Below, piece by piece: positions 2,193 to 20,242 of a stretch of DNA of 20,242 nucleotides. A program made the position numbers and the translations under genes. Position 1 is the stretch's first letter. The number at the start of each line of letters is the position of its first letter. The notes below the pieces were generated by a model. It was not told where the DNA came from. It did no database searches and saw nothing but the letters and a program-made list of their open reading frames with translations. The stretch is from an uncultured candidate division Zixibacteria bacterium (GTDB taxonomy: Bacteria > Zixibacteria > MSB-5A5 > GN15 > FEB-12): NCBI GenBank assembly GCA_913009765.1, contig CAJVYT010000030.1, positions 1 to 20,242 of the forward strand. Reading direction: 5' to 3'.

Positions 2193-2232
2193 AGATGGGT
2201 TAAATCTTCGATACTTTTCGTATATCTACAAG

Positions 2233-2260: not shown

Positions 2261-2421
2261 GTTTTTTTGTTGATAATTTATGATTTCCTAACGGGATAAC
2301 AGGCATTTTGTAATGATATCTATAAAGCAAATAACATCTTTAATGATGTCTTGAGGGAAAACAATATTTGTTTGCTTCCATAAATTATCTTGCATTCTGA
2401 GACAAAATTATAATTACTGAC

Positions 2422-2498
2422 TATAGAGAATACTCAATGTTCCAGAATTCTGATCTAAACGGAAGGTTTCATACCGTAATAAACAAAACTGGAAATTT
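2422..2498 (+). repeat. Diverged direct repeat, copy A (decayed coding remnant)
   Basis: Aligns without gaps to 8071-8147 at a fixed offset of 5649 bases; roughly three quarters of positions match by eye, including ACAAAACT and GAAGGTTTC blocks. Read in the frame that is open in copy B, this copy gives an equivalent peptide (IEN, QC, ILI, EGF, TKLEI conserved) but with three stop codons, so it looks like a dead coding fragment. The two copies bracket the four-gene cassette. Confidence 0.7.
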
Positions 2499-2792
2499 CT
2501 CTCCGAAAATTACGCTTACAATCGGTAATCCTCAGATTCTATACAGCATGATTCTGAAAGGTACACCTGCTTATGAATGATTTTGAAAGACACTACTATT
2601 GTAAATTAATCTATGTTAGCTTCAGGTTTAACAGGAACATCAAGATTGAGGATTTCCTACCAGAATTTGCACTTTACGGAAATTATTTAATAATGAGAAT
2701 TAGCGATATAAAGCCGCAGTCAGGCAAGACACTCACCTGTGTGTATTGATAATTGAGATGCTCTTTTGCTCATGTGTTCCTCTATTCTATTC

Positions 2793-2821
2793 TTGACAAA
2801 CCTCACGTTTCGATATATTCT
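2793..2821 (+). promoter_or_regulatory. Predicted sigma70-type promoter for the DGQHR operon
   Basis: Perfect -35 TTGACA (2793-2798), 17-base spacer, -10 TATTCT (2816-2821, 4 of 6). It would leave a leader of roughly 145 bases before the ATG at 2974, long enough for post-transcriptional control, though I see no recognisable riboswitch. Assigned by eye. Confidence 0.5.
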
Positions 2822-2973
2822 TAAAAATCAATAAGTTCCCGTCTGGATAAATGCGTTTAACGGTTTCTATAGATCTAAAAGAATTGAGGGGGATTAGTCT
2901 TTTGGTTCTTTTAGTAGAGAGTTCTTAATCAAACTTATAATTAATTGGATTTCAAAATTAATGGAGAGTTACA

Positions 2974-3981: not shown

Positions 3982-3983
3982 CT

Positions 3984-4823: not shown

Positions 4824-4836
4824 TTAAACCGGAACG

Positions 4837-6159
4837 TTATTGTTCATTAATTAATTGAGCTATTTTCTCAGCTTTCGAACAATCGTTACATTGGGCAAAG
4901 ATTTCATTAATTATGCTATCCAACTTATCACTATTAATTTTGTGACCCTTTTGTTTGGCTTGAGGGAGGTTAGCAGGTTTTGATGTTTGTAATTTACTAA
5001 CAGGTCCGCGATATGGTTCCCTAGATTTTTCTCGAATTTCTTTTGATAGAAGTAATCCTATTACTCTTTCTATTTCTCGATAAAAAACAGCCTTATAATC
5101 ATTATCAATAAAATCATCTCGACGACCGTTAGGAATCAGCTTATCAGAAACAATATGGATCTCTCCTACACAGTAATGATTAAATCGAGCTTCACGAAAG
5201 TACTGATTCAACAAGTGTGAATCACCAAGCAATATATCTCCAACTCTTACCTTAATACCGCCTCGCAGATCCCCACGACATAGTGCGCCTTTCATTTGCT
5301 CTCGTGTTGCTATCCAGTATACGGCTAATAATTCTTTGATAGGTGTCTCTAATTTATTTAGTCGGACTCCTGTTAATCTATCATTACGACCTTTCATTAC
5401 TGGCACTTCATTTGTATAAGGTTTGTATAGTCTTTGACCGTTCAGAGTTATTGTATATGTTCTATAATCTGCCACATTTGATTTTAAATATTTTTCAATC
5501 TGAGAGGCATAACTGAATTCTGAATTGTTAAAAGGTAAAGGGGCAACTTCAGTGAGATATTTTCTTACTTTTTGTATATCAAGTAAAACATTTCTATAGC
5601 TTGAAACACCTTCCAGTAAAACTGTGAAATATGTATTGTCTTTTTTTTCAGCGCGCGATTGTTTAAAAGTTACGGTTGTTTCTAGTACGTTACTCATATT
5701 GCTTTTTTTCCCGTTGCCGTTGCCTAATACTTCTCTTAGCCTTATACAATCCCATATTTGCTTTGACACTGTTTTTTGTCCTGGGGACGAAGTTGTAAAT
5801 GTAATTTTATCGCAAAATGCTATTCCACCAAGTCTTCCTATGCCACGGAATCCCCTGGCTGCTGTTCCTGTCTTTGCACTACTACCTATAGTGCTTAAGA
5901 AGTCTTTTGCCAATTTTGAGCAAATACCATGTGCATTGTCACCTATAAGTATTGATTTATTAATAGGGTCTAATTTAATGTCAATATTATATTTACTATT
6001 TGTTTTTTCTGAGCCATTATTAGATGAATTGTCTATTGAGTCAACGGCATTTTGTATGTATTCACGATATATCATCAGAGGGTTGTTATACATTCCTGAG
6101 GTTAGTGTTTCTATTAAGTAGATTCCTGTTTCAAATGACTGCTCTTTTTGTTTTTTCAA
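4837..6159 (-). CDS. Hsp90/HtpG-like GHKL ATPase
   Basis: A 440-residue protein with a GHKL (Bergerat) ATP-binding fold close to Hsp90. N-box: YREYIQNAVDSI with E33, N37 and D40. G1-box equivalent: IGDNAHGI, with D74 and G78, where the first Gly of the usual D-x-G-x-G is Ala76. G2 lid: GFRGIGRLGG (103-112). These would bind ATP and Mg. HtpG chaperones are over 600 residues; here the C-terminal dimerisation part is missing and a different 200-residue tail ends in a Lys-rich stretch. Such shortened Hsp90-like ATPases are frequent in defence islands (family knowledge). It lies 21 bases downstream of the radical SAM gene on the same strand, so the two are likely one transcript. The partner or client is unknown. 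Confidence 0.8.
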   Translation of the reverse strand: MKKQKEQSFETGIYLIETLTSGMYNNPLMIYREYIQNAVDSIDNSSNNGSEKTNSKYNIDIKLDPINKSILIGDNAHGICSKLAKDFLSTIGSSAKTGTAARGFRGIGRLGGIAFCDKITFTTSSPGQKTVSKQIWDCIRLREVLGNGNGKKSNMSNVLETTVTFKQSRAEKKDNTYFTVLLEGVSSYRNVLLDIQKVRKYLTEVAPLPFNNSEFSYASQIEKYLKSNVADYRTYTITLNGQRLYKPYTNEVPVMKGRNDRLTGVRLNKLETPIKELLAVYWIATREQMKGALCRGDLRGGIKVRVGDILLGDSHLLNQYFREARFNHYCVGEIHIVSDKLIPNGRRDDFIDNDYKAVFYREIERVIGLLLSKEIREKSREPYRGPVSKLQTSKPANLPQAKQKGHKINSDKLDSIINEIFAQCNDCSKAEKIAQLINEQ

Positions 6160-6180
6160 TGTGAAAACTCCTTATCTATC

Positions 6181-7653
6181 CTATGTAACTGTTTTTTGAT
6201 ATAAAGGCAAAGGCGATACATCCTCGGCGAAGTAGAACTCTAAAATAGCTTTTATTTTACCTTCTTTTTCTTTGATATATTGTTCCTTTAACTTTTTTTC
6301 ATTTCTGCACTTATTAAGAATTTCAAGCAGTTTCATGTGTTGATTTTTTGTCAAACGTTTGAATTGACGAATCCACGCTTTTTCTTTAACACCTGCTTCT
6401 CGTGAACGATACATCAATATGCGTTCTGGCATATGTAAAATTTGATAAAATTTTTCTGATGAGCCACCGAATGCACGATAAAAAAAATCCTCACCAGGCA
6501 TTACAGAACCTTTAACTACATTAAGTATTCTCTGAACATTCCTTAAGAAATACCAATTCCAGTTATCGCTAACATGATTGCGGTCCTCATTTTCTAATGG
6601 TATATATTTCATGGGAAAAGAATAAATCTTAGTGCCAAGTTCTTTATTTAAATCAATATTAATATGTAATCTTTCCCAGAAATCATCCGGCGAATCATTA
6701 AAATTGTATAAAATATAATTTGAGAGGTTCAGTATTTCATGCTTAGCTGCTAAACGTACAGCTTTCTCATATGTTTTTTTAAGCTTGAGGCTGTCAAATG
6801 CAATACGTAAGGGATGTATAGCAATTTTTGACATTAGTTTTATTTTTCCTTCTGTTAGTAATCTGGCATCTACTCCCTGATTAAAATCAACCCGTCGAAG
6901 TTTATTATTTAGTTTGGCTCCTTTCTCGAAACCTACATCTCTTATGTCTTTAATAATTTTTTTTAGATTCTTTGAATGAAGGACATTATTATCAAGAAGC
7001 ACTAAATGTGTTTTCTCGCCAAATTTACTTTTTATTCCTTCAATTAATGGTTTTATCCCGTGGTAATCAATAAACTTTGGCTCCAGTGTATTTACTCCGC
7101 AAAATTTACACTTATTGGGGCACCCTCTCGTTGCGTAGCCCATATAACTATCTTTTAAATTATAATCGTGATTTGGATAATTAAGGATAGAGTAGTCTGG
7201 TATCATCTTATCTACTATGAGGGAATTGTCTTTATCTAGGATTTTGGAGTGGTCTAAAACGCCTCTTATAATATTTGTTACTCCAGTGTCCTCATATAAT
7301 TTAGTTGATTTTAAAGTAGCAGCAATTCCTCCTACATATAATCGCGATGGGTCTCCTCTGAGAACAATATCTTTGTAATAATTTATTGTGTCAATTGTTG
7401 CTTTCCAGTAAAAGGTAAAAAGAGTGGTAATATATATACGGTCCCATGACTCCCAAGACATATCTTTAACTATTCCTTTGTGAAATGTAACCTTGTCACC
7501 AAGAGCTTTATGATAGGCTGATATTTTCATAAGACCCAGAGGAGGGAATTTGGTCTTATATGAAGGTTCAACTAATAAAATATTTCTATTCATAGAGCAA
7601 TTTGTTTGACTAGTATTAAAAATTACAAACTCTTTCTCATAAGAATATAGCAT
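6181..7653 (-). CDS. Radical SAM protein with B12-binding-like N-terminus
   Basis: A 490-residue protein with the radical SAM cluster motif C-x3-C-x2-C at Cys178, Cys182 and Cys185 (RGCPNKCKFCG), which holds a 4Fe-4S cluster and cleaves S-adenosylmethionine. The N-terminal 170 residues look like a cobalamin-binding Rossmann domain (NILLVEP, FPPLGLMKIS, YVGG at 106-109), but the D-x-H-x-x-G cobalamin ligand motif is not visible. DFNQGVDARLL (256-266) is a conserved feature of related uncharacterised radical SAM proteins. The substrate is unknown. Met21 (in front of NRNILLVEP) is a more natural start by domain boundary; neither start has a good ribosome-binding site. First gene of the minus-strand operon with the Hsp90-like ATPase. 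Confidence 0.8.
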   Translation of the reverse strand: MLYSYEKEFVIFNTSQTNCSMNRNILLVEPSYKTKFPPLGLMKISAYHKALGDKVTFHKGIVKDMSWESWDRIYITTLFTFYWKATIDTINYYKDIVLRGDPSRLYVGGIAATLKSTKLYEDTGVTNIIRGVLDHSKILDKDNSLIVDKMIPDYSILNYPNHDYNLKDSYMGYATRGCPNKCKFCGVNTLEPKFIDYHGIKPLIEGIKSKFGEKTHLVLLDNNVLHSKNLKKIIKDIRDVGFEKGAKLNNKLRRVDFNQGVDARLLTEGKIKLMSKIAIHPLRIAFDSLKLKKTYEKAVRLAAKHEILNLSNYILYNFNDSPDDFWERLHINIDLNKELGTKIYSFPMKYIPLENEDRNHVSDNWNWYFLRNVQRILNVVKGSVMPGEDFFYRAFGGSSEKFYQILHMPERILMYRSREAGVKEKAWIRQFKRLTKNQHMKLLEILNKCRNEKKLKEQYIKEKEGKIKAILEFYFAEDVSPLPLYQKTVT

Positions 7654-7748
7654 ATGAGAGGGGAGGATGTCTATCTTTCATAATGCTAAGGATGTAACAA
7701 CGATATAAATACACCCCCCTGAACAGTGATGTTACGAAAACTGGCCAA

Positions 7749-7771
7749 TCTTGATTTTGGGAAAATCAAGA
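7749..7771. repeat. Perfect 10-bp inverted repeat (stem-loop)
   Basis: TCTTGATTTT, a 3-base GGG loop, then AAAATCAAGA. It lies about 100 bases upstream of the radical SAM start. It is not followed by a T-run, so it is not a clear terminator; an operator or the end of an old element is possible. Confidence 0.6.
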
Positions 7772-8070
7772 AATGGAAGCACTATTGATGAAGCATCAGG
7801 CTATATATACTACTACCAATCCTGTAACTAACCGAATTCAATAGCAATATAGTGTTTTTATCATACTACAATTAATGGGGATTAGAAATAATTTTAGCCG
7901 AAAGATTTAATCTTTCCTCAATTATTATAGATTTTCAATTAACATATATATAAGAAGAGTACTTATTGAAGTGCAGATTATAGTCTAAAATTTCACATCG
8001 ATTCCGCATACCAAAGATGAAGATAATAGGATGAAAGATTGTACGTTTTAGAAATTTTCAAAAACTCAAC

Positions 8071-8147
8071 AATAGAGAATTTTCAATGCACTGGGATTCT
8101 TATCCACATTGAAGGTTTCAAACCGTTACAAACAAAACTTGAAATTC
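8071..8147 (+). repeat. Diverged direct repeat, copy B (coding remnant)
   Basis: Partner of 2422-2498, ungapped. In this copy the frame is open from about 8029 to a TAG at about 8159, giving roughly 43 codons that read like real protein (IENFQCTGILIHIEGF followed by KPLQTKLEILKEP), and the same frame continues open beyond the stop up to the MITE-like element. I do not recognise the protein. It is best read as a fragment of an inactivated gene. Confidence 0.65.
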
Positions 8148-8260
8148 TTAAAGAACCATAGACAGGTTCTTGGGAGAATGAAACTGATCCCAAACCAGCT
8201 CTTTTGCAAAGCCCTGTAGTGGAGATTTTAAATTATCCTTTGAGTGAAGATAAAATTTTA

Positions 8261-8507
8261 GGTAATAGTTCACCCCCCCTTTTTTTTGGAAAAGGGGGGC
8301 GAGGGGGGATTTTTATAATTTCAATGTCTTTTTTTACAATAAAAACAAGGTAGGATTAAAGGTATTGAGTGATATATTCTGATAGAGAAGTTTTTAAAAT
8401 CTTATTTAATGAAAAATTCCCCTTAATCCCCCTTTTCCAAAGGGGGAAGGTTTCAGTTCAGTCTTGTGGGCAATGATAAGCTTAACCGGGGGTGCTGAAC
8501 TATTACC
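8261..8507. mobile_element. MITE-like element, 247 bp
   Basis: Perfect 12-bp terminal inverted repeats: GGTAATAGTTCA at 8261-8272 and its complement at 8496-8507. Just inside are two inverted copies of a C-run/G-run hairpin unit (8273-8316 and 8411-8450, sharing the CCCCCTTTTCCAA core). There is no coding capacity, so it would depend on a transposase elsewhere. No clear target-site duplication is seen. Similar C/G-run hairpins are common interspersed repeats in Nitrospirota and Desulfobacterota genomes (general knowledge). Confidence 0.65.
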
Positions 8508-8594
8508 ATTCTTCTAATAACTGTTAACCGTTCACGGTTCACGCTTACCATTAAGATTTCCTCTGAATTATCCGATATACACTTAGAGTTCGAT

Positions 8595-10073
8595 ATGTAT
8601 GAAAAGTTCTACGGCCTTCGGGACAGACCATTTAACCTCACCTCTGACACCGGGTATCTTTACCTCGGCAGCTACCACAAAGAAGCCCTCGACTTCCTTT
8701 CATCCGGCATCAGGAAAAATTACAATCTCATTGTCTTAACCGGGGATATCGGCTCCGGGAAAACAGTTGTGCTGAGAAGCTTTGTTAAAGGCGTGGGTCC
8801 GGCATTTGAAGTGATACAGGTTTTTTACCCGGCTGATTCATGTGTTCAGCTTCTACAGATGATTCTCCTGAGTCTGGGTGTCAAGTCAATCCAGGGTGAT
8901 CTTAATGCCTTGCGTGAAGAATTGAAAGGCCGTTTAAAAAAACTGCACTCTGCTAAAAAGAGGCCTCTCCTGGTGGTTGATGAGGCCCAGAACCTGGATG
9001 GGGATACTATCGAAGAAACATTCCGGCTCTCCGAGCTTAAGTACAAAGGCAAGCGCCTTCTGAATGTTATTCTTACAGGACTGCCGAAATTGCAGAGCAA
9101 GCTTTCCTCACTTCACCATATCAAGCTTCAAACTGACGCAATCTATCATCTGAAGAGTCTTCCAAAAGAAGAGGTCCCTGAATATATTCAGTATCGTCTA
9201 TCTACTGCCGGCCTTTCTGACCCGGTAGTATTTCCCGGCGAGGTAATTAAAGTGATCGGCCTTTTTTCAGGGGGGACGCCAAGACTCATTAATACGGTTT
9301 GTGATGCCTTGCTTGTTCAGGGATACCTTGCAAATGAGAAAATAATTACACCTTCCATCCTTAAAGAAGCTCTTGACCATTTGCCTTATGATGCAGTGCC
9401 GGGTCATCCTGAAGCAGAACCCGCGACTGCTGCGCTCATTAGTAAGGCAGGTCACGGGAAAAACATAGTATCAGGGAAACAGGCAAAAAGGGTGAATTCG
9501 AAAAAGGCTGTTGTTGTATCGAAGCAGGATGAGAATGCGCTGGCTCAAGATGAAGGGCATAAGCCGGATAAACAGCTTTCCCTGAGGGTACTGGTTCTTG
9601 AAAAGAACAAGCGAATGAAAGTGCACCTCGATAATCAGTTTCAAAAATATGGATACAATTTCTTTATAACCAATAACCTTGAAGAGCTCTTTAAAACCCT
9701 TGAGCGGTCAAATGGACCGGAACTTGAGATTATAGTCGCAGACGCCGTTTCCTTTTTCCCCGGGGTGGGCAGGGAAGACCCGGCAGGTAAACGTGCCCTG
9801 GACAGTATACAGGCAGCTTATGCCTGTTCACCGATTATCATGACCTCTACCCTTCCGTTAACAGCAATACGGGCAAAACTTCTCAGGAGAGGAATCCCTT
9901 TTCTCCTGCAGAAACCGGACCTGGGTCTTCTTGACCTGTCTGAGGTTACAACCCGGTTCGATAGCTTTTTTGGCGAACTCCGAAATTGCCTCTCAAACAT
10001 ATATTCTCAGTTTAACGCATTTTATAACAGAATTATAAAGTTAACTTATGAAAATACCGATACAATAAAATAG
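8595..10073 (+). CDS. ExeA-like AAA+ ATPase with C-terminal receiver-like domain
   Basis: A 492-residue protein. It opens with the ExeA/GspA family head (MYEKFYGLRDRPFNLT). Walker A is GDIGSGKT (50-57), Walker B LLVVDEAQ (125-132), a sensor-like NVILTG (157-162), and a GGTPRLIN sensor-2 motif with R230. ExeA-type ATPases help assemble secretion or pilus complexes in the cell wall, but this protein has no membrane segment or peptidoglycan-binding domain. After a low-complexity linker (about 266-328) residues 331-460 resemble a response-regulator receiver: D383 at the phosphoacceptor position, PIIMTST (413-419), and K440-P441; the acidic pair at the first strand is replaced by E336-K337. Fusion of the two domains is unusual. 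First gene of a four-gene plus-strand cluster; next gene 52 bases on. Confidence 0.85.
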   Translation: MYEKFYGLRDRPFNLTSDTGYLYLGSYHKEALDFLSSGIRKNYNLIVLTGDIGSGKTVVLRSFVKGVGPAFEVIQVFYPADSCVQLLQMILLSLGVKSIQGDLNALREELKGRLKKLHSAKKRPLLVVDEAQNLDGDTIEETFRLSELKYKGKRLLNVILTGLPKLQSKLSSLHHIKLQTDAIYHLKSLPKEEVPEYIQYRLSTAGLSDPVVFPGEVIKVIGLFSGGTPRLINTVCDALLVQGYLANEKIITPSILKEALDHLPYDAVPGHPEAEPATAALISKAGHGKNIVSGKQAKRVNSKKAVVVSKQDENALAQDEGHKPDKQLSLRVLVLEKNKRMKVHLDNQFQKYGYNFFITNNLEELFKTLERSNGPELEIIVADAVSFFPGVGREDPAGKRALDSIQAAYACSPIIMTSTLPLTAIRAKLLRRGIPFLLQKPDLGLLDLSEVTTRFDSFFGELRNCLSNIYSQFNAFYNRIIKLTYENTDTIK

Positions 10074-10125
10074 GTTACTCAAAAATCGGGGTACACAGTA
10101 CATTATTAAGACACGGGGAGTTAAA

Positions 10126-11823
10126 ATGAGGGATAAACATAAGATCGGTGAACTTTTACTTGAGCTTAACGTTGTTACGCAAACAGAGCTTGATGAGGCC
10201 CTTGAAGAGCAGAAACGCACGGGTGAGAGGCTGGGCGCTACCCTTCTGAAGATGGACTTTATTTCCGAGGAGGACCTTGAACAACTGCTGAGCCGGCAGC
10301 TTGATGTTCCGTCGATCAATCTTGAAAATTATTCGCCTACCCCTGAATTAGTAGATATAATCCCTGAGAAAGTCATCAGAAAATACCTTGTCCTGCCCAT
10401 ATCCGTGGAGGGTAAAACGCTTACCGTAGCAACCGCAAGCCCGCGCGACCTGAGCATTCTGGATGACCTCGCTTACATTACAGGTCATAAGATCATTCCT
10501 GTAGTTGCATCAATCAGATCTCTTAACAGCAAGATCGGGGAATTGTTTGAAAAGGCGGTGAACTGGGAAGATGCGCTGAAGATACAAAAGGGAAGTGATC
10601 TTGAAATTATCAAAGCCGACCAGAGCGCTATTGACCAGGACCTTGAAAAGGCATTTCAACAGGCGGAAGATACAGTCGTGGTCAAGTTAGTTAATGCTAT
10701 TATCCTTGCGGCTATTGATAAGGAGGCCACCCACATCCATATAGAACCAAAGGAGGATTCATTTGAAATCTACCTGCGTATCAGCGGAAAACTGAGATTG
10801 CTGGTAAAGCCCCCGAAAAATTTCCTGCAGAATGTGGTGAACAGATTAAAGATCCTCAGTTCCATGGACATCCTGAACCGGCTGATTCCCTGTGAGGGAT
10901 ATTTCAGGGCCAGATCCATGAGGAAGTTTTACGATATAGATGTCGCCACCATCCCGTCGCTTCATGGAGAGAGGACGGTTCTGACCTTTCAGCAGCCTTT
11001 TTCAAAGGAGGAGCTGAAACTTGAAAAGCTCGGATTTACACCGGAAATGCTCCGGAGTTTCAAGGAATTGCTCCTGAATCCGAGGGGATTTATTCTGGTT
11101 ACAGGACAGACGGACAGCGGCAAGAGTTCCACTATTTATGCAGCCCTGAACCATATCAAGAATCCGGACAAATCGATTTTCACGTTTGAAAGAACAATCA
11201 AAAACAAGCTTCTCGGTATCAGCCAGGGCCAACCCAATGAAAAAGCGGGATACAGCTACGAGAAGGGGCTCCATTTTTTGCTCAGGCAGGATATAGATGT
11301 ACTAATGGTGGGAGAAATGATGACAAGGGATGCAATCGTCTCTACCCTCCTCGCATCTCTTTCAAAGACCCTCATCCTCGGCAGATTTTTGTCTAATGAT
11401 ACCATTGGCGCAATTGCCATGATGCTCGAAATGGATGTGCCTCCATTCATGCTTTTTTCCGCGCTCACCGCGATCCTCGGTCAGCGTCTGGTCCGGAAGC
11501 TCTGCCAGGAATGTATTGAAGATTATGAGCCGCCCCGTGATCTTGCAGAGGAAATCCGGGCTGTTACAGGCAAAGAGCATCCCAGGCTCTTCCGGTCCGC
11601 AGGATGTCCAGCCTGCAGCCATACAGGGTATAACAACAGGATAGGCATATTTGAGCTTGTAGTTCCCTCAGCGGAATTTCGCGACGCTGTTTTTGCCAGG
11701 GCATCCCTGAATGAACTCAAACAGGTTGCTGAAAAAATCGGATATCGCACATTCCGCCACGATGGGCTTATCAAAGCATCCGAGGGGCTGACGAGTTACG
11801 AAGAGATCGTCAGCACTGTCTGA
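10126..11823 (+). CDS. GspE/PilB-like ATPase with degenerate catalytic boxes
   Basis: A 565-residue protein with the full GspE/PilB layout: an N-terminal MshEN-type domain (about 5-145), an N2-like domain with HIHIEPKED (203-211), and a C-terminal ATPase core. Walker A is GQTDSGKS (327-334), still compatible with nucleotide binding. The Asp box (usually I-E-D-P-V-E) reads FERTI (354-358), Walker B keeps VGE (395-397) but the following I-R-D is M-M-T, and the His box has no His (SKTLILGRFLSND, 412-425). Conserved arginines of the ring interface are also replaced (DIDVATIP, VLTFQ). The four zinc-type cysteines remain (460, 463, 494, 497). So the fold is intact but the hydrolysis machinery is probably weak or lost. 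GGGGAG lies 5 bases before the ATG. Neighbours suggest an envelope or pilus-like complex. Confidence 0.85.
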   Translation: MRDKHKIGELLLELNVVTQTELDEALEEQKRTGERLGATLLKMDFISEEDLEQLLSRQLDVPSINLENYSPTPELVDIIPEKVIRKYLVLPISVEGKTLTVATASPRDLSILDDLAYITGHKIIPVVASIRSLNSKIGELFEKAVNWEDALKIQKGSDLEIIKADQSAIDQDLEKAFQQAEDTVVVKLVNAIILAAIDKEATHIHIEPKEDSFEIYLRISGKLRLLVKPPKNFLQNVVNRLKILSSMDILNRLIPCEGYFRARSMRKFYDIDVATIPSLHGERTVLTFQQPFSKEELKLEKLGFTPEMLRSFKELLLNPRGFILVTGQTDSGKSSTIYAALNHIKNPDKSIFTFERTIKNKLLGISQGQPNEKAGYSYEKGLHFLLRQDIDVLMVGEMMTRDAIVSTLLASLSKTLILGRFLSNDTIGAIAMMLEMDVPPFMLFSALTAILGQRLVRKLCQECIEDYEPPRDLAEEIRAVTGKEHPRLFRSAGCPACSHTGYNNRIGIFELVVPSAEFRDAVFARASLNELKQVAEKIGYRTFRHDGLIKASEGLTSYEEIVSTV

Positions 11824-11939
11824 GTTATAAAAGTGCAGAGCTGTTTCCGGCTTAATACCCGGAGGTTCTGGCTGAAGTTTTACAGCAGTTGAAATATTTC
11901 AAGGTTTTTTGGTAAGTTAGCGTATCGGGAGGCTGTTAT

Positions 11940-12782
11940 TTGATCAATAATCTATCATCAGGTTCATACCCTGAAGACCGGACCGGAAAACATATTCGCC
12001 TTAATAATTTTTTTCCACGGGCTGCTCCGGCTCTTGCCTCTGTTTTATGCCTTTTGTTCTCTGTTCTGTTTTTTTCCGCATGCGCCACTATTCCTGATCC
12101 GGAAGACATAAAAAAAGCAGATGCCTACAACAAGCTGGGATCATCCTATTTAAACAACGGGCAACTCAATGAGGCATTTGTAAAATTCCAGATAGCCCTC
12201 GACCTGGACCCCAAAAACAAAGAGACACTGAACTATCTCGGGTATATCAGCGCAAGATTCAAAAAATATGATGACGCTGTCTCTTATTACGAGAGGGCTA
12301 TATCAGTAGATCCGAACTACTCGGATGCGATAAATAATCTTGGAGTGACTTATGCAGAGCTTGAGGACTGGGATAAGGCAATTCAACACTTTAAAGACGC
12401 ACTAAACAATCCGATGTACCGCACACCTGACTGGGCATATTCAAACCTGGGTTATGCGTATTACAAACAGGGCAATTATACGGAGGCGGAAAATGCCCTC
12501 AGAGAAGCCCTTGTAAGAAATCCTGTTTTCCCCGGCGCCATGTACATTCTCGGACTCGTTTATACGGAACGCGGCAATGAGAAGGCTGCAATAAAAGAGT
12601 TTAAAAAGGCAATCGGGATATTACCGGATTACATGGATGCCCACTGGGAACTTGCCAATGCCTATTTGAGATTGGGTGAGAAAGCCAGGGCGCTGAAACA
12701 TTTCAGGGTAGTAGCGGAAAAAGATGAAAACACTGCAAGAAGCAGAGATGCATCGGACTACATTGAGCGTCTTAAGTATTAA
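11940..12782 (+). CDS. TPR lipoprotein (PilF/PilW-like)
   Basis: A 280-residue protein exported by a lipoprotein signal: an N-terminal positive region, a hydrophobic stretch (about 29-44), and the lipobox FSAC with Cys48 as the lipidated residue. The mature part is six consecutive tetratricopeptide repeats (about 58-278), each with the usual G/A-x-x-Y and P-x-Y/N endings, a protein-docking scaffold. Architecture matches PilF/PilW-type pilotins that help type IV pilus secretin assembly, though TPR repeats alone do not prove this. The start is TTG at 11940, chosen because GGGAGG lies 7 bases upstream; the next ATG would cut into the repeats. Its stop codon directly abuts the ATG of the following gene, so the two are probably co-translated. 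Confidence 0.8.
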   Translation: MINNLSSGSYPEDRTGKHIRLNNFFPRAAPALASVLCLLFSVLFFSACATIPDPEDIKKADAYNKLGSSYLNNGQLNEAFVKFQIALDLDPKNKETLNYLGYISARFKKYDDAVSYYERAISVDPNYSDAINNLGVTYAELEDWDKAIQHFKDALNNPMYRTPDWAYSNLGYAYYKQGNYTEAENALREALVRNPVFPGAMYILGLVYTERGNEKAAIKEFKKAIGILPDYMDAHWELANAYLRLGEKARALKHFRVVAEKDENTARSRDASDYIERLKY

Positions 12783-13439
12783 ATGGATACACCTGGCAAG
12801 GCATTAAAGGCAGAGAGGAAAAGACAGAAAAAATCCTTAAGATATTTTGCAGTAAGATTAAAGATAAACATCGAATACTTAAAAGCAATTGAAGACGATA
12901 ACTATTCATTGCTTCCTGCAGACATATTTACAAAAGCTTACCTGCGCCTTTATGCTGAGGCCCTCGGACTTGAAAACGATTACATCCTGAGTTTATATAA
13001 AGGCCGGAGCGAGGCGGAGATTGTTGAAATCCCGGCGCCTTCCAGAAGCAAATTTGTATTCCCTCTCAAGCCTGTATTAATTATTTTTTTTCTTGTCCTG
13101 ATTATCATATCTGTAACAGTGCTCATGAAGTCCGGAGAACAGAAACCTGCCGAAGAATTTGTCAATAAAGCAGGGGAGCAGGAAATTCTCAAAGAAGAGA
13201 AGCCGGGAACACTCTCTCTCAAAATAACTGCCACGGAAATTACCTGGGTGTCTGTGAGTATTGACGGGGGCAAGCCCAAAGAGTGGCTTCTGAGGGCAGG
13301 GGAGACAGTAACGTTAACTGCGATGGAAAAGTTTGCTGTTAAGGTAGGCAATGCAGGCGGCACAAGACTTACGCTTAATGGTGAGGAGCTTGGAGTTCTC
13401 GGGCCGCACGGGAAAATTGCCGACATTGTTTTGCCTTAA
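12783..13439 (+). CDS. RodZ-like HTH membrane protein
   Basis: A 218-residue protein with the RodZ layout: a cytoplasmic helix-turn-helix domain (about 5-72, including LKAIEDDNYSLLP and FTKAYLRLYAEALGL), a basic juxtamembrane patch, one membrane helix (about 96-115), and an outer C-terminal beta domain of the DUF4115 type (about 142-214). RodZ proteins link MreB filaments to the elongation machinery; shorter homologues such as this one are also found beside pilus and secretion genes. The ATG follows the TPR stop codon with no gap. It is the last gene of the cluster. No clear terminator follows it. Confidence 0.8.
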   Translation: MDTPGKALKAERKRQKKSLRYFAVRLKINIEYLKAIEDDNYSLLPADIFTKAYLRLYAEALGLENDYILSLYKGRSEAEIVEIPAPSRSKFVFPLKPVLIIFFLVLIIISVTVLMKSGEQKPAEEFVNKAGEQEILKEEKPGTLSLKITATEITWVSVSIDGGKPKEWLLRAGETVTLTAMEKFAVKVGNAGGTRLTLNGEELGVLGPHGKIADIVLP

Positions 13440-13637
13440 AATTTGGTTGTTAAGACTTGAACTTCTGCCTTTTCTTCGTGCAGTAAGCAAGGCATCTGCA
13501 AGATTGAAAAAAAAAGATGGCAAGCAACAAAAAACTTTTTAAACTTGTCAACGAAGTTATTTCAAATGTCAGGACACCACTCCCATAATCTGAAGCAATT
13601 CGGAGCAACGCATGAGGCGAAAATGATATGACTGTTG

Positions 13638-13646
13638 TGATATAAT
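13638..13646 (+). promoter_or_regulatory. Predicted extended -10 promoter
   Basis: TGA-TATAAT, an extended -10 element with a perfect hexamer at 13641-13646, 47 bases before the TTG of the 55-aa gene. No good -35 hexamer is present 17 bases upstream. Confidence 0.4.
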
Positions 13647-13693
13647 TCATCAGCGGCTACATAAAAGGTTCGGGAAAGCATCGGAGAGACATT

Positions 13694-13861
13694 TTGGCAA
13701 AATCAAAGATTATGCAGGAGAGCAGGAAAAGCGAGTCCGGGGCCATCGGGAAGCTCACTCCGGCTGAGAGACTTCAAATTGCGTGTGAGCTTTCCGACGT
13801 GTGCCGTGAACTGGAAAAGGCAGGGAAAAAGGCCTGGCGTGGGACTGGACGAAAGCCTTAA
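13694..13861 (+). CDS. Small 55-aa protein upstream of nucleotidyltransferase
   Basis: A frame starting with TTG at 13694, with GGAGAG about 6-7 bases upstream. The product (KSKIMQESRKSESG..., then LTPAERLQIACELSDVCREL) is mostly helical and charged. Small proteins with this kind of TPAERL...ELSD segment are often found just upstream of AbiEii-type nucleotidyltransferases, where an antitoxin or accessory role is possible but unproven. It overlaps the next frame by 23 bases if that gene starts at the GTG at 13839. The C-terminus (WRGTGRKP) could be a frame-shifted end, since the downstream partner is itself damaged. Confidence 0.5.
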   Translation: MAKSKIMQESRKSESGAIGKLTPAERLQIACELSDVCRELEKAGKKAWRGTGRKP

Positions 13862-14183
13862 AGAAATTGCAGGCATCATGAACAGGCTCTCGGCCCGGGG
13901 GGTAACAAAAGGATATGCCCTCATAGGAGGCCTGTCTGTCTCGGTATGGAAGACGCCGAGGGGCACCCGTGACATAGACCTTCTGGTATCATTGGACTCA
14001 ACAGAACATATCGATAAATTCTGCAAGGCTCTCGAAACCGAAGGGCTTGCCCCTGATATCCTTACAGGAGGTCTTGGTGACCCGGTTCCCTATCTTGTAA
14101 AGGTATCACATAAAGGCATACCCGTTGATATGACCGGGTTTGACTATGGATATTCATCTTTTCTTCCCTTAATGTTTCAATGA
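13839..14183 (+). pseudogene. AbiEii-like nucleotidyltransferase, 3'-truncated
   Basis: From the GTG at 13839 the product is 114 residues and shows the nucleotidyltransferase core: ALIGGLSVSVW (G30-G31) followed by RGTRDIDLLV with D45 and D47 as metal ligands. Family members (type IV toxin-like AbiEii and related MNT-type enzymes) are about 180-300 residues and continue after the GIPVDM segment with a helical domain and a conserved DLIVLK-type stretch. Here the frame ends at MFQ shortly after GIPVDMTGFDYG, and I found no continuation in the other plus-strand frames, so this looks like a deletion, not a simple frameshift. An earlier in-frame ATG at 13779 would sit inside the 55-aa gene and its extra residues do not look like the family. 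Confidence 0.65.
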
Positions 14184-14403
14184 CATTTTTTATGTGATGG
14201 ATGGGGCAGCTCATTTTGTAAAATGTGTAGACGCGCCCCACGGATGACGTGTTACAACACCATTTCATTGGTTACAGATAATCTATTGGAAAAGTTTAAT
14301 GTTTATCGAGTCAGCTTGGAAATCTAATGAAAAATGCATTTGAGCAACAGCCCGTGTACAGGCGACCCCACAAATGAAAAAGCTGAGAAAATATTGATAC
14401 ACT

Positions 14404-14808
14404 TTATTCAGCGACGAATTCTTCCAATGACAACGCGGTACCATGGAATGCTTTCAGGACTTTTTTGTCGGATGTCACCAGCGGGACTTTTAAGTCTAAA
14501 GCTAAAGCGACAAATTCACAATCATAGGCTGAGCACCCACTCAATGCAGCTAAACTCAAAACCTGGGCTGAAGCTATATCGTATTCCCCGCCATTCATAA
14601 GAGCTTCAGCTTCGTGCATGATTTTGAGTGAATCATCAAGTTTAAGTATTTTATTGTGTGTGTAGTAAGCGAGAATGTTCCTGAATTCACTCCGCCAAAG
14701 GACGGGGGCCACCCATTCAGGTTCTTTTGTAAGCGCCTGTTCTGATTGTTTGGTTTTTTCGCCCGGAAGATATAAATATGCAAGGATATTGGTATCGACT
14801 ACGATCAT
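14404..14808 (-). CDS. PIN-domain toxin, VapC/FitB type
   Basis: A 134-residue PIN-domain protein, the expected length for VapC toxins, which are Mg-dependent ribonucleases acting on tRNA or rRNA. The acidic centre is visible: MIVVDTNILAY with D5, LWRSEFRNIL with E41, and SAYDCEFVALA with D95; a last acidic residue may be SD (113-114) in VTSDKKVL. The start codon overlaps the antitoxin stop by 4 bases (ATGA), the usual translational coupling of these pairs. It appears complete. Confidence 0.85.
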   Translation of the reverse strand: MIVVDTNILAYLYLPGEKTKQSEQALTKEPEWVAPVLWRSEFRNILAYYTHNKILKLDDSLKIMHEAEALMNGGEYDIASAQVLSLAALSGCSAYDCEFVALALDLKVPLVTSDKKVLKAFHGTALSLEEFVAE

Positions 14809-15047
14809 GGGCGACCGGCATTTTTGACTTTTGTGATTTCTTTTTCCGTAAACAAATGACCGGCTGTCTTCTTGCGCAAAGCGCTTGCAGCAGCAATAAT
14901 TTTTTCAGGATAAATCTTGCGGTCTCTAAGCGCTTTTTCAATACAAGTGATTATCTCACTGTTGATGCTGCGCCGGTTTGTTTTTGCTGACTGCCTGATT
15001 TGATCATATAATTCATCCGGGATGTTTTTAAGTGTTACAGTTGCCAT
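14805..15047 (-). CDS. Ribbon-helix-helix antitoxin, FitA/VapB type
   Basis: An 80-residue protein with a typical FitA/Arc-like DNA-binding head (MATVTLKNIPDELYDQIRQS and RRSINSEIITCIEKAL) followed by a C-terminal tail (about 45-80) that would wrap the PIN toxin. The start at 15047 is chosen over upstream frames because GGAGG lies 5 bases before it and the protein begins exactly at the RHH strand. RHH antitoxins bind palindromic operators and repress their own operon; a matching palindrome overlaps the promoter just upstream. It overlaps the toxin gene by 4 bases. Confidence 0.85.
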   Translation of the reverse strand: MATVTLKNIPDELYDQIRQSAKTNRRSINSEIITCIEKALRDRKIYPEKIIAAASALRKKTAGHLFTEKEITKVKNAGRP

Positions 15048-15062
15048 TGCTCCTCCAAAATG

Positions 15063-15088
15063 GTTCCAATATGATTTCATTATGGAAC
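15063..15088. promoter_or_regulatory. Palindromic operator of the toxin-antitoxin operon
   Basis: Two 12-base arms, GTTCCAATATGA and TCATTATGGAAC, separated by TT, matching as inverted repeats at 10 of 12 positions. It begins 16 bases upstream of the antitoxin ATG and covers the -10 hexamer, as expected for autorepression by the RHH antitoxin. Confidence 0.65.
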
Positions 15089-15107
15089 AATTAACTGCTT
15101 TTGTCAA
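15079..15107 (-). promoter_or_regulatory. Predicted promoter of the toxin-antitoxin operon
   Basis: On the minus strand: perfect -35 TTGACA (15102-15107), 17-base spacer, -10 CATAAT (15079-15084, 5 of 6). The -10 lies inside the palindrome at 15063-15088. Confidence 0.65.
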
Positions 15108-15122
15108 TATGGAAGATAGCTT

Positions 15123-15947
15123 ATGAGTAGGGTCGTGTCTACATATTTTGCATATTTTGAAAAAATCCCGGACAATCAGATTACTGTATATCAGACACCT
15201 GATGGGGGAATTAATATAGAAGTGCTGTACGCCAATGAAAACATCTGGTTGCCTCAAAAACGAATGGCGAAACTGTTTGGGTGTAGCGCGGACAACATTT
15301 CTTTGCATCTGAAAAATATATATAAAGAGAAAGAACTCGATGAATCTTCAACTGCCGAGGTTTTCTCGGTAGTTCAAATTGAAGGGAAAAGGGAGGTTGC
15401 CCGTAATGTGACCTGTTATTCTCTATAGGCAATTATTGCTGTAGGGTACAGAGTGAATTCGGTGCGTGGCACACAATTTCGGCAATGGGCCATTACAATT
15501 CTCCAGAAATATATACACAAAGGTTTCGCCATCGACAGCGACCGCTTTAAATACGGTTCCCGATTCAGCGCCCGGTTTTTCGATGATTTGCTTGAAGAAA
15601 TCAGGGATATCCGCGCAAGCGAAAGAATGGCGTATCAAAAAATTACAGATATTTATGCAACTTCAATTGATTATTCTGCTAAGGCAGAAGATACAAAAAT
15701 GTTTTTTGCCACAGTTCAAAACAAACTGCACTTTGCCATTACCGGGCAGACTGCCGCTGAAATTGTCGCCAAACGGGCAGATAGCGCTAAACCTAATATG
15801 GGATTAACATCATGGCGAAAAGGGCCCAAAGGTAAAGTTATGCCAAGTGACGTTTCCACTGCTAAAAATTATTTAAACAAACCGGAGCTCGATCATCTAA
15901 ACCGCATCGTCACAATGTATCTGGATTTTGCGGATGTCGGTGTCTGA
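15123..15947 (+). pseudogene. RhuM-family protein gene, broken by TAG and truncated
   Basis: One continuous RhuM-family reading frame interrupted by a single TAG at 15426-15428. Before it: the N-terminal domain with ITVYQTPDGGINIEVLY, ENIWLPQKRMAKLFGCS and KNIYKEKELDE. After it, in the same frame: AIIAVGYRVNSVRGTQFRQW and the long C-terminal region to MYLDFAD. RhuM proteins normally have Asp at the stop position (LDAIIAVGYRVNS), so one codon changed. The 3' end is also lost: after LDFAD the frame ends in VGV at a GGTGTCTGACCCC sequence, about 60-70 residues short of the usual end. RhuM proteins are linked to Salmonella pathogenicity islands and phage-defence loci; their activity is unclear. 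Confidence 0.8.
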
Positions 15948-15992
15948 CCCCACGGACTTTCAAGACCCCTTGTTGTTCTCTGCCCGGGAATT

Positions 15993-16009
15993 GATTTTAG
16001 ACTAAAATC
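15993..16009. repeat. Small palindrome
   Basis: GATTTTA, GAC, TAAAATC: a perfect 7-bp stem with a 3-base loop in the gap between the RhuM remnant and the peptidase-like gene. No T-run follows, so it is not clearly a terminator. Confidence 0.45.
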
Positions 16010-16112
16010 TGCGATCTTCTTTTAGTTCTTATTGGTGGATAGTTAAAATGGCAATCTGTGGGTGGGAATAATGCAAGAAACAAGACTTTGCATAATAGTC
16101 CCATTTTTTATC

Positions 16113-16141
16113 TTGAAAAATAATTAGGTTGCAGGTATATT
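16113..16141 (+). promoter_or_regulatory. Predicted sigma70-type promoter of the peptidase-like gene
   Basis: -35 TTGAAA (16113-16118, 5 of 6), 17-base spacer, -10 TATATT (16136-16141, 5 of 6). It would give a leader of only about 20 bases before the ATG at 16169. Confidence 0.55.
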
Positions 16142-16168
16142 GAGGTATTCCAGACATTTCAAACAGTT

Positions 16169-17629
16169 ATGAACAATAGATATTCAGAATCGAAACTTTT
16201 TCCCATTGAAGCTGGACGTGAAGAGCGGGGGTGGGTGAGTGTAAAAAAAGAATGTGAAAACTTGTCAGAATGGGGATATAAACTGCTTTATGAAAACTTG
16301 AAGGGGTCAGTTCGTACTGTAGTTTTAGAACCTGATTATATATGTAAAGATCATAAAAATCTGTTCAGTCAATTCTATTCCAAAAAATTTTCCGTTCCAT
16401 CTCCCTTCACATGCCGACTTCATTTCTTTTCAGATCAAATCAAAAACATACAAGAGCTGCTTTATTACTCCGAGAAATATTCCGACAAATATCTTGGCTA
16501 TAGCATTATAAGAGAAGTTAGTGAGCGATGCATCGGACGAACCGTGATTAATCCTCACGTGATAAATAGTGGGGCTGACGGAAATTTCTATTATATGCTT
16601 ACAGAATTTGCTGTACATCTAAATGGGGCAAAGTTTAAAGTTCAAGGTTTTCCTTATACCTCACAAGACGTTGATGTTACAGTATGTGCTCACTCAGCAC
16701 TTTGGGCCATTTGTAGGTATTTATCTGAGAGATACACATTGTATAGTGAAGTGTATCCGTTCGACTTGGTGAGAATGACAGGAACTGCTCGTGGCCGTAC
16801 GTTCCCTTACAGAGGGATGACATATGCAGATTACTCTCAGATATTGTCATCATTTGGTGTCTATCCTGTTATAGTGAGTGTGAAGAAACATACCCGCTTT
16901 CCTATTGCTGATCCGGACGAATTAAAAAAAGTTTATACTTATGTTGAATCCGGGTTCCCTGTTCTTGCCAGTTTTGCCGGGCATGTCGTAGCTTTGGTGG
17001 GCCATACAATTGATTATGACAGGCCATATACAGAAGATAGTGACGGTTTTGTGGACAGCTTTTCCTTCCTCAAACAATTTATCACAATTGACGATAACTT
17101 TTTCCCGTATGCACTACTTGGCTACGATGACGACCCTGATAATTATGCAACAGTCTATCCTTATTCAATTAATTCTATTGTTACCGCAGTTTGTCCGCTT
17201 CCGGAAAAGGCATTTCTGCCTGCAGAGAAAGCGAAAGAAAAGGCCATGAAGTATTTCAGAAATTTTATAAGCGAACTTGGAAAATATTCGGGTAAACCAT
17301 GGGTGACGCGATTTTTCATCACCACAAATAAATCGTTCAAAAGAAGAAAGCTGGAAAATATTAAGGCTGGACATGATAAACTGGATTCATTTATAATTAA
17401 TATTGATTTGCCCCATTTCATATGGGTAATGGAAATAAGTTCTTTAGCTGATTATAAGAACGGTGTGTGTGTAGCAGAGATAGTCCTTGATTCAACGGCG
17501 AGCGAAAAAGACCATGCTGTGCTATATATGAGGATTGGAAATATATTGTATTTTAACGGTAAAGAAAAGAATGTTTCTGACGCCTCTAAATCTTTTCCCC
17601 AATATACCGATAATCTAAATAAGGAGTAA
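16169..17629 (+). CDS. Papain/C39-like cysteine-peptidase-like protein
   Basis: A 486-residue protein that I cannot name, but the middle looks like a papain-fold cysteine peptidase of the C39-like kind. Q166 precedes the likely nucleophile Cys173 (DVTVCAHSALWAI), the usual Gln-x6-Cys spacing for the oxyanion Gln and catalytic Cys. His272 sits in AGHVVALVGH, matching the G-H-x-V-x-x-x-G His motif, and ITIDDNFFPY (306-313) supplies D308 or D309 as third residue. No signal peptide or membrane segment is seen, so it should act in the cytoplasm. The flanking N- (1-155) and C-terminal (350-486) parts are unassigned. A good promoter lies 28 bases upstream, but there is no clear ribosome-binding site. 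The stop codon is followed 4 bases later by a small gene with its own AAGGAG. Confidence 0.65.
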   Translation: MNNRYSESKLFPIEAGREERGWVSVKKECENLSEWGYKLLYENLKGSVRTVVLEPDYICKDHKNLFSQFYSKKFSVPSPFTCRLHFFSDQIKNIQELLYYSEKYSDKYLGYSIIREVSERCIGRTVINPHVINSGADGNFYYMLTEFAVHLNGAKFKVQGFPYTSQDVDVTVCAHSALWAICRYLSERYTLYSEVYPFDLVRMTGTARGRTFPYRGMTYADYSQILSSFGVYPVIVSVKKHTRFPIADPDELKKVYTYVESGFPVLASFAGHVVALVGHTIDYDRPYTEDSDGFVDSFSFLKQFITIDDNFFPYALLGYDDDPDNYATVYPYSINSIVTAVCPLPEKAFLPAEKAKEKAMKYFRNFISELGKYSGKPWVTRFFITTNKSFKRRKLENIKAGHDKLDSFIINIDLPHFIWVMEISSLADYKNGVCVAEIVLDSTASEKDHAVLYMRIGNILYFNGKEKNVSDASKSFPQYTDNLNKE

Positions 17630-17633
17630 GCTT

Positions 17634-17834
17634 ATGTCAAGGGAAGACATAGGAAAATATTTTATGACAAAAGAAGATTTCTTTGACGGTGCTGTTGAGT
17701 CTGAGGTATTTAACAAGGTCTCTACCGAAATCCGCGTCGAAGAGAGCAAAATGCTTGTCGATGAATCCAGGATAGAAAGAGACAAGACATGGAGTTTGTT
17801 GGCTAACCAGGTTGTGGGGAGTGAGGAGTATTAG
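17634..17834 (+). CDS. Small 66-aa charged protein, partner of the peptidase-like gene
   Basis: ATG at 17634 with AAGGAG 7 bases upstream, overlapping the end of the preceding gene, so translation is probably coupled. The product is acidic and largely helical (KEDFFDGAVESEVFNKV, then SRIERDKTW) with no recognisable domain. It could be a regulator or inhibitor of the peptidase-like protein, by position only. Only 12 bases after its stop codon the sequence becomes a T-run and adapter, so nothing can be said about what really follows in this genome. Confidence 0.6.
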   Translation: MSREDIGKYFMTKEDFFDGAVESEVFNKVSTEIRVEESKMLVDESRIERDKTWSLLANQVVGSEEY

Positions 17835-17846
17835 TGTTGATTTGTG

Positions 17847-17914
17847 TTTTTTTTTTAATGATACGGCGACCACCGAGATCTACACTCTTTCCCTACACGA
17901 CGCTCTTCCGATCT
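17847..17914 (+). other. Illumina adapter plus poly-T: assembly chimera junction
   Basis: 17857-17914 (58 bases) reads AATGATACGGCGACCACCGA at its start and ACGACGCTCTTCCGATCT at its end: the complete Illumina universal P5/Read 1 adapter. It is preceded by ten T (17847-17856). In the reverse orientation this is genomic DNA, then adapter, then poly-A, the pattern of a read running past the end of its fragment. The assembler seems to have used the homopolymer to join two unrelated ends. It is not biological DNA. Confidence 0.97.
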
Positions 17915-18229
17915 AGTTGGCCTGTTTCTGCATCGGTTCTTCTATATCCCTTGCCGTTTGTTTACGGCATTGCAGGATTCGGCTGGTATAACTCGACCAT
18001 CGAGTATAGTTCTAATTTGCCCAATCTGATCACGCCAAAGAGCGAGACCGAGCAACAAATCGGCTATCATTTTGGCGGCGGTGTAGAATTGCCGCTTAGC
18101 AGCGCCATGTCGGTTGCCGCAGATATTCGTTACGTTTACCTCGATTATCAGTTTAATTCGACGTCCAGTGGCCAAAAAGTAAAGTCTGATTTTTATGCTA
18201 TTACGCTTTCAATGTTTTGGGGATTCTAG
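17915..18229 (+). CDS. Outer-membrane beta-barrel protein, C-terminal fragment
   Basis: The frame is genuine only from 17915, just after the adapter, and gives 104 residues. Alternating hydrophobic strands with Gly and aromatics (YGIAGFGWYN, IGYHFGGGVELPLS, VAADIRYVYLDYQF) and a C-terminal Phe (TLSMFWGF) are typical of OmpA/OmpW-type eight-stranded barrels recognised by the BAM machinery. The N-terminal part, including the signal peptide, is missing because the fragment begins at the library end. A GTG-started frame running from 17834 through the adapter is an artefact. The next gene starts 9 bases downstream. Confidence 0.75.
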   Translation, partial: SWPVSASVLLYPLPFVYGIAGFGWYNSTIEYSSNLPNLITPKSETEQQIGYHFGGGVELPLSSAMSVAADIRYVYLDYQFNSTSSGQKVKSDFYAITLSMFWGF

Positions 18230-18238
18230 AGTGAAACT

Positions 18239-19468
18239 ATGACAATTTATTATGCCAGGACATCATCGAATCAATTTGGACCTCTGAGACTTGCAGAAAT
18301 AAGAAGGTTCGTAAAAGATGGTGTATTTCAATTGTCTGATCAATATTTGGATTTTTCTTCCGTCAAATGGAAAGCGATGGTTGAGGATCCTGTTTTGAAA
18401 CAAGTTTTCCGGGAAAATAACACCGACAAAAAACCTCCGAAAATCATTGCCATTGCCAGCGGCAAAGGGGGAGTTGGCAAAACAGCTCTTGCTGCTTCCA
18501 TGTCGATCGAACTTGCCAATCTGGAAAAGAAAGTCATTCTGGTTGATGCAGATTTCGGAGGCCCTGACCTTCATGAATGGATGGGGATCAGCCGGCCTCC
18601 GATAACTTTGAATGCGCTGTTCAGCAAAAAAGGCCTGAGCTTGAGTGATATCCTGTTAAGCACTCCGTACAAAAACATTAAAATGATTTGCGGCGATGTC
18701 GGGAGCCTCGAGTCATCAAATCCAAAATATTTTCAACGGCTCAAATTTATCCGCCAATTAAGACAACTCGATGCCGATTATGTGCTTGTCGACCAGAGCC
18801 CGGGAGTGTCGTATGCAACCGTGGATATTTACCTCAATTGTGACGAGGGGATTATCGTCACACTGCCGGAAGCGACCTCTTACATGGATGCTTTTAATTT
18901 CATCAGAAGCACGCTGATAAGACGACTCAAAAAGGCTATATTTTTTAGCGAATATGCATTGCAGCAACTGGAAGAATTCGAAAATCTGGATTGGCGAAAA
19001 TACGAAAAATCACTACTCCCTTTTTTAGTCAGAATAGAGCGAGACAACACACGGGCAGGTATAATTTTTAAGGGTGTTCTTCGTAATTTTCATCCGAAAA
19101 TCGTAACCAATATGGTGCAAAATAAACGCGAATCTTTGGAAAGTACGAGGTTTCAATATTCTTTAACAAAACTTTTACTGATAGAGGCAAGGCACCTCGG
19201 ATTTATCGAGTACCGAAAGGATTTTAGAAGCACACTAAAAGAGCACCGACCTTTCGTTTTGATTGCCCAAAAAGATGCAGATTCGTTACATTTCAAAAAG
19301 TGGAGGCGCACTCTTGAGAACGGATTGCATCATCTTGCAAAAATTGGCGCCGGTAAAAAAGAAAACAACCCGACAACGAAAGAACTGCTTCAGCCTGCCA
19401 TAAACCATTCGCATGAAATACATGCAGGAGTTAAAAAACTCAACCTGCAGATTCCCTCAACTGTGTAA
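18239..19468 (+). CDS. GYF-domain/MinD-like ATPase fusion
   Basis: A 409-residue protein. Residues 1-60 form a GYF_2-type domain (YYARTSSNQFGPLRLAEI with the later KWKAM), a peptide-binding module. Residues 68-350 are a MinD/ParA-family deviant Walker ATPase: GKGGVGKT (75-82) with signature Lys76, switch-I-like VDADFGGPDLHEW (102-114), and VDQSPG (184-189) in place of the usual D-x-P-P-G. These enzymes dimerise on ATP and position or regulate envelope machinery; the closest style is FleN/YlxH or Mrp-like. A Lys/Asn-rich tail follows. It starts 9 bases after the outer-membrane gene and is followed by the phosphotransferase gene after 20 bases. It belongs to the contig right of the adapter, so it should not be linked to the genes on the left. 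Confidence 0.8.
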   Translation: MTIYYARTSSNQFGPLRLAEIRRFVKDGVFQLSDQYLDFSSVKWKAMVEDPVLKQVFRENNTDKKPPKIIAIASGKGGVGKTALAASMSIELANLEKKVILVDADFGGPDLHEWMGISRPPITLNALFSKKGLSLSDILLSTPYKNIKMICGDVGSLESSNPKYFQRLKFIRQLRQLDADYVLVDQSPGVSYATVDIYLNCDEGIIVTLPEATSYMDAFNFIRSTLIRRLKKAIFFSEYALQQLEEFENLDWRKYEKSLLPFLVRIERDNTRAGIIFKGVLRNFHPKIVTNMVQNKRESLESTRFQYSLTKLLLIEARHLGFIEYRKDFRSTLKEHRPFVLIAQKDADSLHFKKWRRTLENGLHHLAKIGAGKKENNPTTKELLQPAINHSHEIHAGVKKLNLQIPSTV

Positions 19469-19488
19469 AAGCTCAGTCCAGCCAACAA

Positions 19489-20242
19489 ATGCCTTCAACA
19501 AAAATAAAACTGACTGAACTCTATACCCGCCACCTTGGAAAACCGCCCGAAAAAATTATACAACTCAAAGGGGATGGGTCCGATCGCAGCATTTTCAGGC
19601 TTTATGGATCGGCGAAAACAGTTATTGGAATCAGCGGGGAAAATCATGCGGAGAATCTTGCCTTTGTCCAATTTTCAAATCATTTTGCCGAGCACGATCT
19701 GCCGGTGCCAAAAATCTATGCAACGCAATTGGCAAAGGGAATTTATCTCGAAGAAGATTTAGGCTCCGAAACTCTGTTTGATCGTATTTCAAAGGTGAAG
19801 GAGAGATCGAGTGATGCTGTCCTGAATTTGTATCGGAAGGTGATCGAGTGGCTTCCAAAATTCCAGATCGTAGCAGCAAAGGATTTGGATTTTTCCTTTT
19901 GCTACCAATACAGAGAATTTTCCCGGGATGCTATGCTTTGGGATTTGCAATATTTCCGACATCGTTTTTTGGATATTTTTTATGACGGTGAATTTTGTGA
20001 GGCTGACCTTTTGGACGATTTTCGCTTCTTCACTGATTATCTGAGCCATGCTGATTCGAATTTCTTTTTATACCGCGATTTTCAGTCGCGAAATATTATG
20101 CTGAAAAATGATCGTCCGTATTTCATTGATTACCAGTCCGGCAGGCGGGGAGCTTTGCAATATGACTTGGCATCACTTTTATACGATGCAAAAGCGAGAC
20201 TGCCGGAGAATATACGCGAGGAATTGATCGATTTTTATCTTG
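19489..20242 (+). CDS. APH/AmgK-like phosphotransferase, partial at window end
   Basis: ATG at 19489; 251 residues are visible and the gene runs off the window. It is of the aminoglycoside-phosphotransferase fold, close to sugar kinases such as AmgK (N-acetylmuramate/N-acetylglucosamine kinase). Seen motifs: DGSDRSIFRL (29-38) at the nucleotide-binding loop, EEDLGSETLFDRI (88-100), a catalytic loop YRDFQSRNIM (195-204) with D197 and N202, where the usual first His is Tyr195, and IDYQSG (213-218) with D214 for metal binding, followed by QYDLASLLYD (224-233). The family usually has about 330 residues. In related genomes it is often followed by a nucleotidyltransferase, which cannot be checked here. 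No strong ribosome-binding site is visible. Confidence 0.8.
   Translation, partial: MPSTKIKLTELYTRHLGKPPEKIIQLKGDGSDRSIFRLYGSAKTVIGISGENHAENLAFVQFSNHFAEHDLPVPKIYATQLAKGIYLEEDLGSETLFDRISKVKERSSDAVLNLYRKVIEWLPKFQIVAAKDLDFSFCYQYREFSRDAMLWDLQYFRHRFLDIFYDGEFCEADLLDDFRFFTDYLSHADSNFFLYRDFQSRNIMLKNDRPYFIDYQSGRRGALQYDLASLLYDAKARLPENIREELIDFYL

Follow-up and report, generated by a model that had tools for sequence, protein, structure and literature searches.

The question raised by this locus is whether the DNA on the two sides of position 17.85 kb belongs together. The window (the whole stretch of DNA analysed here, 20,242 nucleotides) had been described in a first-pass annotation as the join of two separate sequences, with a complete Illumina adapter inside the contig, ten T on the outer side of the adapter, and a right side that begins where a library insert would begin, in the middle of an outer-membrane gene. 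The adapter, the ten T and the different native neighbour of the right flank together make it close to certain that the contig was falsely joined at this point, likely by an assembler working on untrimmed reads. The junction is an artefact, not a biological feature. The features of the window are listed in Table 1.

Table 1. Features of the window in order of position, with strand and supporting evidence.
Feature	Position	Strand	Evidence or remark
IS66 transposase end	1-303		Low-GC stretch
MmeI-like type IIG restriction-methylase, truncated (642 aa; model length 912 positions)	264-2192		
DGQHR/DndB-like gene	2974-3981		
HSP90-like ATPase (weak resemblance)	4837-6159		
Radical-SAM/BchE-like gene (weak resemblance)	6181-7653		
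Peptidase-like gene, 486 aa	16169-17629	+	291 homologues among 4,285 scored candidates, closest 87%
Last complete left gene, 66 aa	17634-17834	+	Five homologues, 80-89%
False chimeric ORF, 131 aa, starting MLICVFFLMIRRPP	17834-18229	+	Adapter peptide plus end of outer-membrane protein
Ten T, likely flow-cell oligo spacer	17847-17856	+	Recurrent T run beside other adapter copies
Complete 58-base Illumina universal adapter	17857-17914	+	Exact match, chance expectation none
Outer-membrane beta-barrel gene, codons 80-183 and stop, cut by the join	17915-18229	+	Whole gene in G001; Pfam OMP_b-brl
MinD/ParA-type ATPase gene	18239-19468	+	Pfam; 100% identical in G001:C637
APH-type kinase gene, running off the window end	19489 on (flank 18239-20242)	+	Pfam; 100% identical in G001:C637

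The adapter and the T run

Exact comparison over the whole window showed no mismatch between positions 17857-17914 of the forward strand and the 58-base Illumina universal adapter, which we take to be the product named Illumina TruSeq Universal Adapter. All 58 bases are the same as in that oligonucleotide, and the orientation is that in which the insert follows the last base; the difference is that the adapter is here internal to the contig and not at a contig end. None of 100 dinucleotide shuffles of the window matched the adapter, even with 3 mismatches allowed, and the 12-base adapter stem occurred once elsewhere in the window (11586-11597), with one mismatch. The T run directly before the adapter is exactly ten bases long (17847-17856) and is the longest run of T or A in the window, where the remaining runs of at least 8 are 8-9 long. 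The interval 17847-17914 consists of these ten T and the 58 adapter bases, and on both points the first-pass annotation was borne out.

An exact scan for the adapter detected it in at least 120 genome stretches and in 57 viral stretches. Among the matches listed, 182 copies in 177 loci were examined, the genome part being a lower bound. The ten T of the window are part of the artefact and not of the left-flank DNA, because at least ten T were also present outside the adapter in 143 of the 153 listed copies whose outer side is ten or more bases long (another 29 listed copies were too short there and were excluded from this test). The commonest length of the T run was ten (52 of the 182 listed copies). 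In 98 listed copies 10-160 further bases follow past the run; close to it they are rich in T and poor in C, which is what base calls made after the end of a molecule should look like. Of the 182 listed copies, 175 were no more than 160 bases away from the outer end of the stretch retrieved, and 7 were farther from it. Divided by source, the copies no more than 160 bases from that end were 118 of the 124 listed from genomes and 57 of the 58 from viral stretches, which argues against the idea that the T run and the adapter-like sequence occur naturally in the genome. That idea is also at odds with an exact match of 58 bases to a synthetic oligonucleotide, and with the finding of an adapter match in only one of 20 genomes (G001, the nearest genome compared, and 19 relatives), over 24 bases only. 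No point in support of a natural element was found, and its probability is negligible.

Long joins like that of the window are uncommon: of the 182 listed copies, a single one, in locus L042, is flanked on each side by over 1 kb of the stretch retrieved (1,153 and 6,789 bases, forward strand) and provides a parallel. Five loci (L034, L042, L105, L114 and L129) have an internal adapter with at least ten outer T and 1.1-14.3 kb on the T side; their insert side is shorter than 400 bases, except for one L042 copy. In L045, the universal adapter is immediately preceded by other adapter-like sequence, presumably another adapter, and then A7 and T7, an arrangement suggesting that assembly can join homopolymer tails. 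Many of the adapter-bearing genome contigs come from MAGs of runs DRR093003, DRR093004 and DRR093005. According to a passage of PMC6946796, the second of these runs is a metagenome from deep-sea sulfide deposits that are hydrothermally inactive.

The right flank and its native locus

All 2,328 bases of the right flank (17915-20242) were found in G001 at 100% identity, at positions 1956-4283 of contig C637. The identity sets in at 17915, immediately behind the adapter; the preceding base is already different and there is zero overlap. In this test of the insert boundary, genomic DNA starts directly after the last base of the adapter. The outer-membrane beta-barrel gene is whole in G001 (183 codons, 1719-2270 of L180), and the window holds codons 80-183 of it. 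Upstream of this gene in G001 is a gene of 365 aa with an adenosine-deaminase domain detected by Pfam (L180 587-1684). A second genome of the same genus, G002, carries the right segment at 90% identity and is colinear with G001 across the join point, with 93% identity over 5.4 kb. The adapter was absent from the same locus in the contigs of both genomes (L180 in G001, L196 in G002).

The mid-gene insert start given in the first-pass annotation is thus matched by the G001 identity, which sets in at codon 80 of 183, and its claim of a join between two sequences agrees with G001 and G002, both of which place codons 1-79, and not the left flank, before 17915. Because the right flank has another native upstream neighbour in these two genomes, two separate loci appear to have been joined here, rather than an adapter placed between contiguous flanks. 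If there had been only an insertion error, with the adapter separating flanks that adjoin each other in the source organism and with a true gene order, codon 80 would not be expected to follow codons 1-79 of the same gene in G001 and G002; the left gene pair has its own stop at 17834, and the loss of the first 79 codons would need to coincide exactly with the insert boundary. No support for such an error was found; a strain-specific rearrangement in the source organism may be invoked for it, and the error is considered extremely improbable.

The left flank and the source of the two sides

The left flank (1-17846) had no blastn match in L180 or L196, and none of its 31-mers was present in L180. 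Neither 1-14000 nor 14000-17846 gave a DNA match in G001; as G001 is 86% complete, the lack of the left flank from this genome is no proof of another organism. A search with 8500-17846 against 82 genomes of the phylum of G001, in which no more than 3 candidates per genome were scored, gave 27 short DNA matches (64-96% identity) in 21 genomes, and 18 of the 27 fall in 15.2-15.9 kb, in or beside a RhuM-type gene. The T2SSE-type ATPase encoded by the left flank was compared with 20 relatives, the best of which reached 32% identity over near-full length; over partial stretches, identity was up to 37%. In the genomes reached via adapter-bearing loci, this ATPase had only distant matches (19 of 24 genomes, the best-scoring at 36%). 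As to the native continuation of the left flank, no sequence carrying its end was found in the searches of G001, of adapter-linked, viral and plasmid sequences, or of the 82 genomes. The first part of the window (1-7653) is low in GC and resembles a defence island.

Judged from these sequence matches, the two flanks are likely to come from different organisms. It is unlikely that they come from different places in the genome of one organism, in which case the join would still be false. On that reading, the left part could be missing from G001, given its 86% completeness, or could be accessory. The comparison of tetranucleotide composition which the first-pass annotation had proposed as a check could be carried out, and it left the flanks unseparated: the correlation of the right flank was 0.20 with 15519-17846 and 0.16 with the remainder of its contig in G001, values being low for all pairs that include a right flank of just 2.3 kb. 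That the profiles fail to distinguish the two sides is consistent with a single organism. Against it are the empty searches of G001 with left DNA, the low identity of the relatives of the T2SSE-type ATPase, and the contrast between the short patches of left DNA in 21 of the 82 phylum genomes (at most 3 candidates scored in each) and the right flank, whose DNA matched 54 of the 82, two of them over the full length. The present contig differs from chimeric scaffolds of metagenomes in that its junction is marked by the adapter itself.

The gene pair left of the junction

The 486-aa peptidase-like protein had no match in Pfam, NCBIfam or PADLOC, and none in the PDB by sequence profile. Residues C173, H175, H272, H279, D308, D309 and N310 were invariant in all 20 aligned sequences. 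The predicted fold (pLDDT 84) has a weak likeness to the papain-like proteases UfSP2, the C39 domain of PCAT1 and staphopain, and the fold comparison of the model gave no match at E ≤ 0.001. The protein was found neither in 20 genomes reached via adapter-bearing loci nor in viral contigs; three matches were obtained in plasmids, at 21-23% identity, and 2 of the 82 genomes of the phylum of G001 had matches at 26-31%.

Of the five homologues of the 66-aa gene that follows, four share its length and its ending, and the fifth (P0123) diverges after residue 65; the C-terminus of the protein is nearly invariant. This last left gene is regarded as complete because its final codon is conserved in four of the five relatives, and genuine left DNA extends at least to codon 66, at position 17834. 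Close relatives of the 486-aa and 66-aa proteins (P0121 and P0127) are both assigned to a contig of 43,363 bases; the pair is therefore probably natural. The 66-aa partner could be a substrate or an inhibitor of the 486-aa protein.

The longest run without C in the window spans 55 bases (17809-17863). The C-free left end was considered as noise from the end of a read, and this was rejected up to 17834, where the coding sequence is conserved to the last residue in four of the five relatives; the rejection stops there, and the 12 bases 17835-17846 fall outside it.

Proposed origin of the join

The join would have started from a library fragment that ended at the first base of the right side and was shorter than the read. 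Such a read would pass through the insert, the adapter and the ten-T spacer of the flow-cell oligonucleotide to the end of the molecule. Left untrimmed, the adapter and T run would then present the assembler with a shared repeat, and the unrelated contig 1-17846 would have been linked to their outer side. We infer that the interval likely stems from an untrimmed read that passed through a short insert and on to where the surface-bound molecule ended, and that the left contig was attached in an assembler step.

In the window, ten T stand directly before the P5 sequence, as in a P5 flow-cell surface oligonucleotide with a ten-T spacer, and Illumina flow cells presumably bear the same spacer. In a passage of PMC11123353, a ten-T spacer precedes P5 in the primers used there for solid-phase amplification and reduces steric hindrance. 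Reads that run on past the adapter are described in part of PMC3906532, according to which post-insert sequence can affect de novo assembly. A literature search on adapter contamination, read-through and flow-cell spacers returned no title on exactly such joins, and one may still exist.

It is doubtful that the join was instead made within single reads, the base caller having taken up a neighbouring cluster after the ten T and so having linked unrelated genomes. If that were true, the ten T and the adapter would tag an entire category of these chimeras among public MAGs.

The false protein and its consequences

The right side is in frame with the adapter by coincidence, and the ORF at 17834-18229 keeps the 104 C-terminal residues of the outer-membrane protein; this chance agreement of reading frames therefore produces a false ORF of 131 aa. 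The chimeric ORF still scores as OMP_b-brl in Pfam, and therefore would pass an annotation pipeline. A search with the chimeric protein scored 8,000 candidates, 5,458 of which passed E 0.001. Among the 120 matches listed, 109 carried the full adapter peptide, 7 a partial one and 4 (P0001-P0004) none; these four have a Pfam outer-membrane domain. The first-pass warning that any protein with this beginning is false holds, as the adapter peptide is in frame with the outer-membrane protein end and is carried, in whole or part, by 116 of the 120 relatives among the matches listed. A full-text literature search did not find the adapter peptide IRRPPRSTLFPYTTLFRS printed in any paper.

NCBI screens for adapters with VecScreen, yet contamination occurs, as stated in a passage of PMC7218494. 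The spurious database proteins treated in that passage likewise arise from contaminant DNA and recur as proteins; cross-species contamination is concerned there, whereas in the window it is an adapter peptide.

Beyond the first-pass annotation, the present analysis places the right side in its native neighbourhood, supports the completeness of the last left gene and gives a likely origin of the ten T. The earlier rejection of any gene-neighbourhood claim that spans 17.85 kb stands, with an adenosine-deaminase-type gene as the native upstream neighbour of the right side. The join is a quality warning, not biology, and the 131-aa ORF is to be masked. The ten T followed by the adapter provide a simple search string for such joins, and for the false protein families that result from them, in databases.
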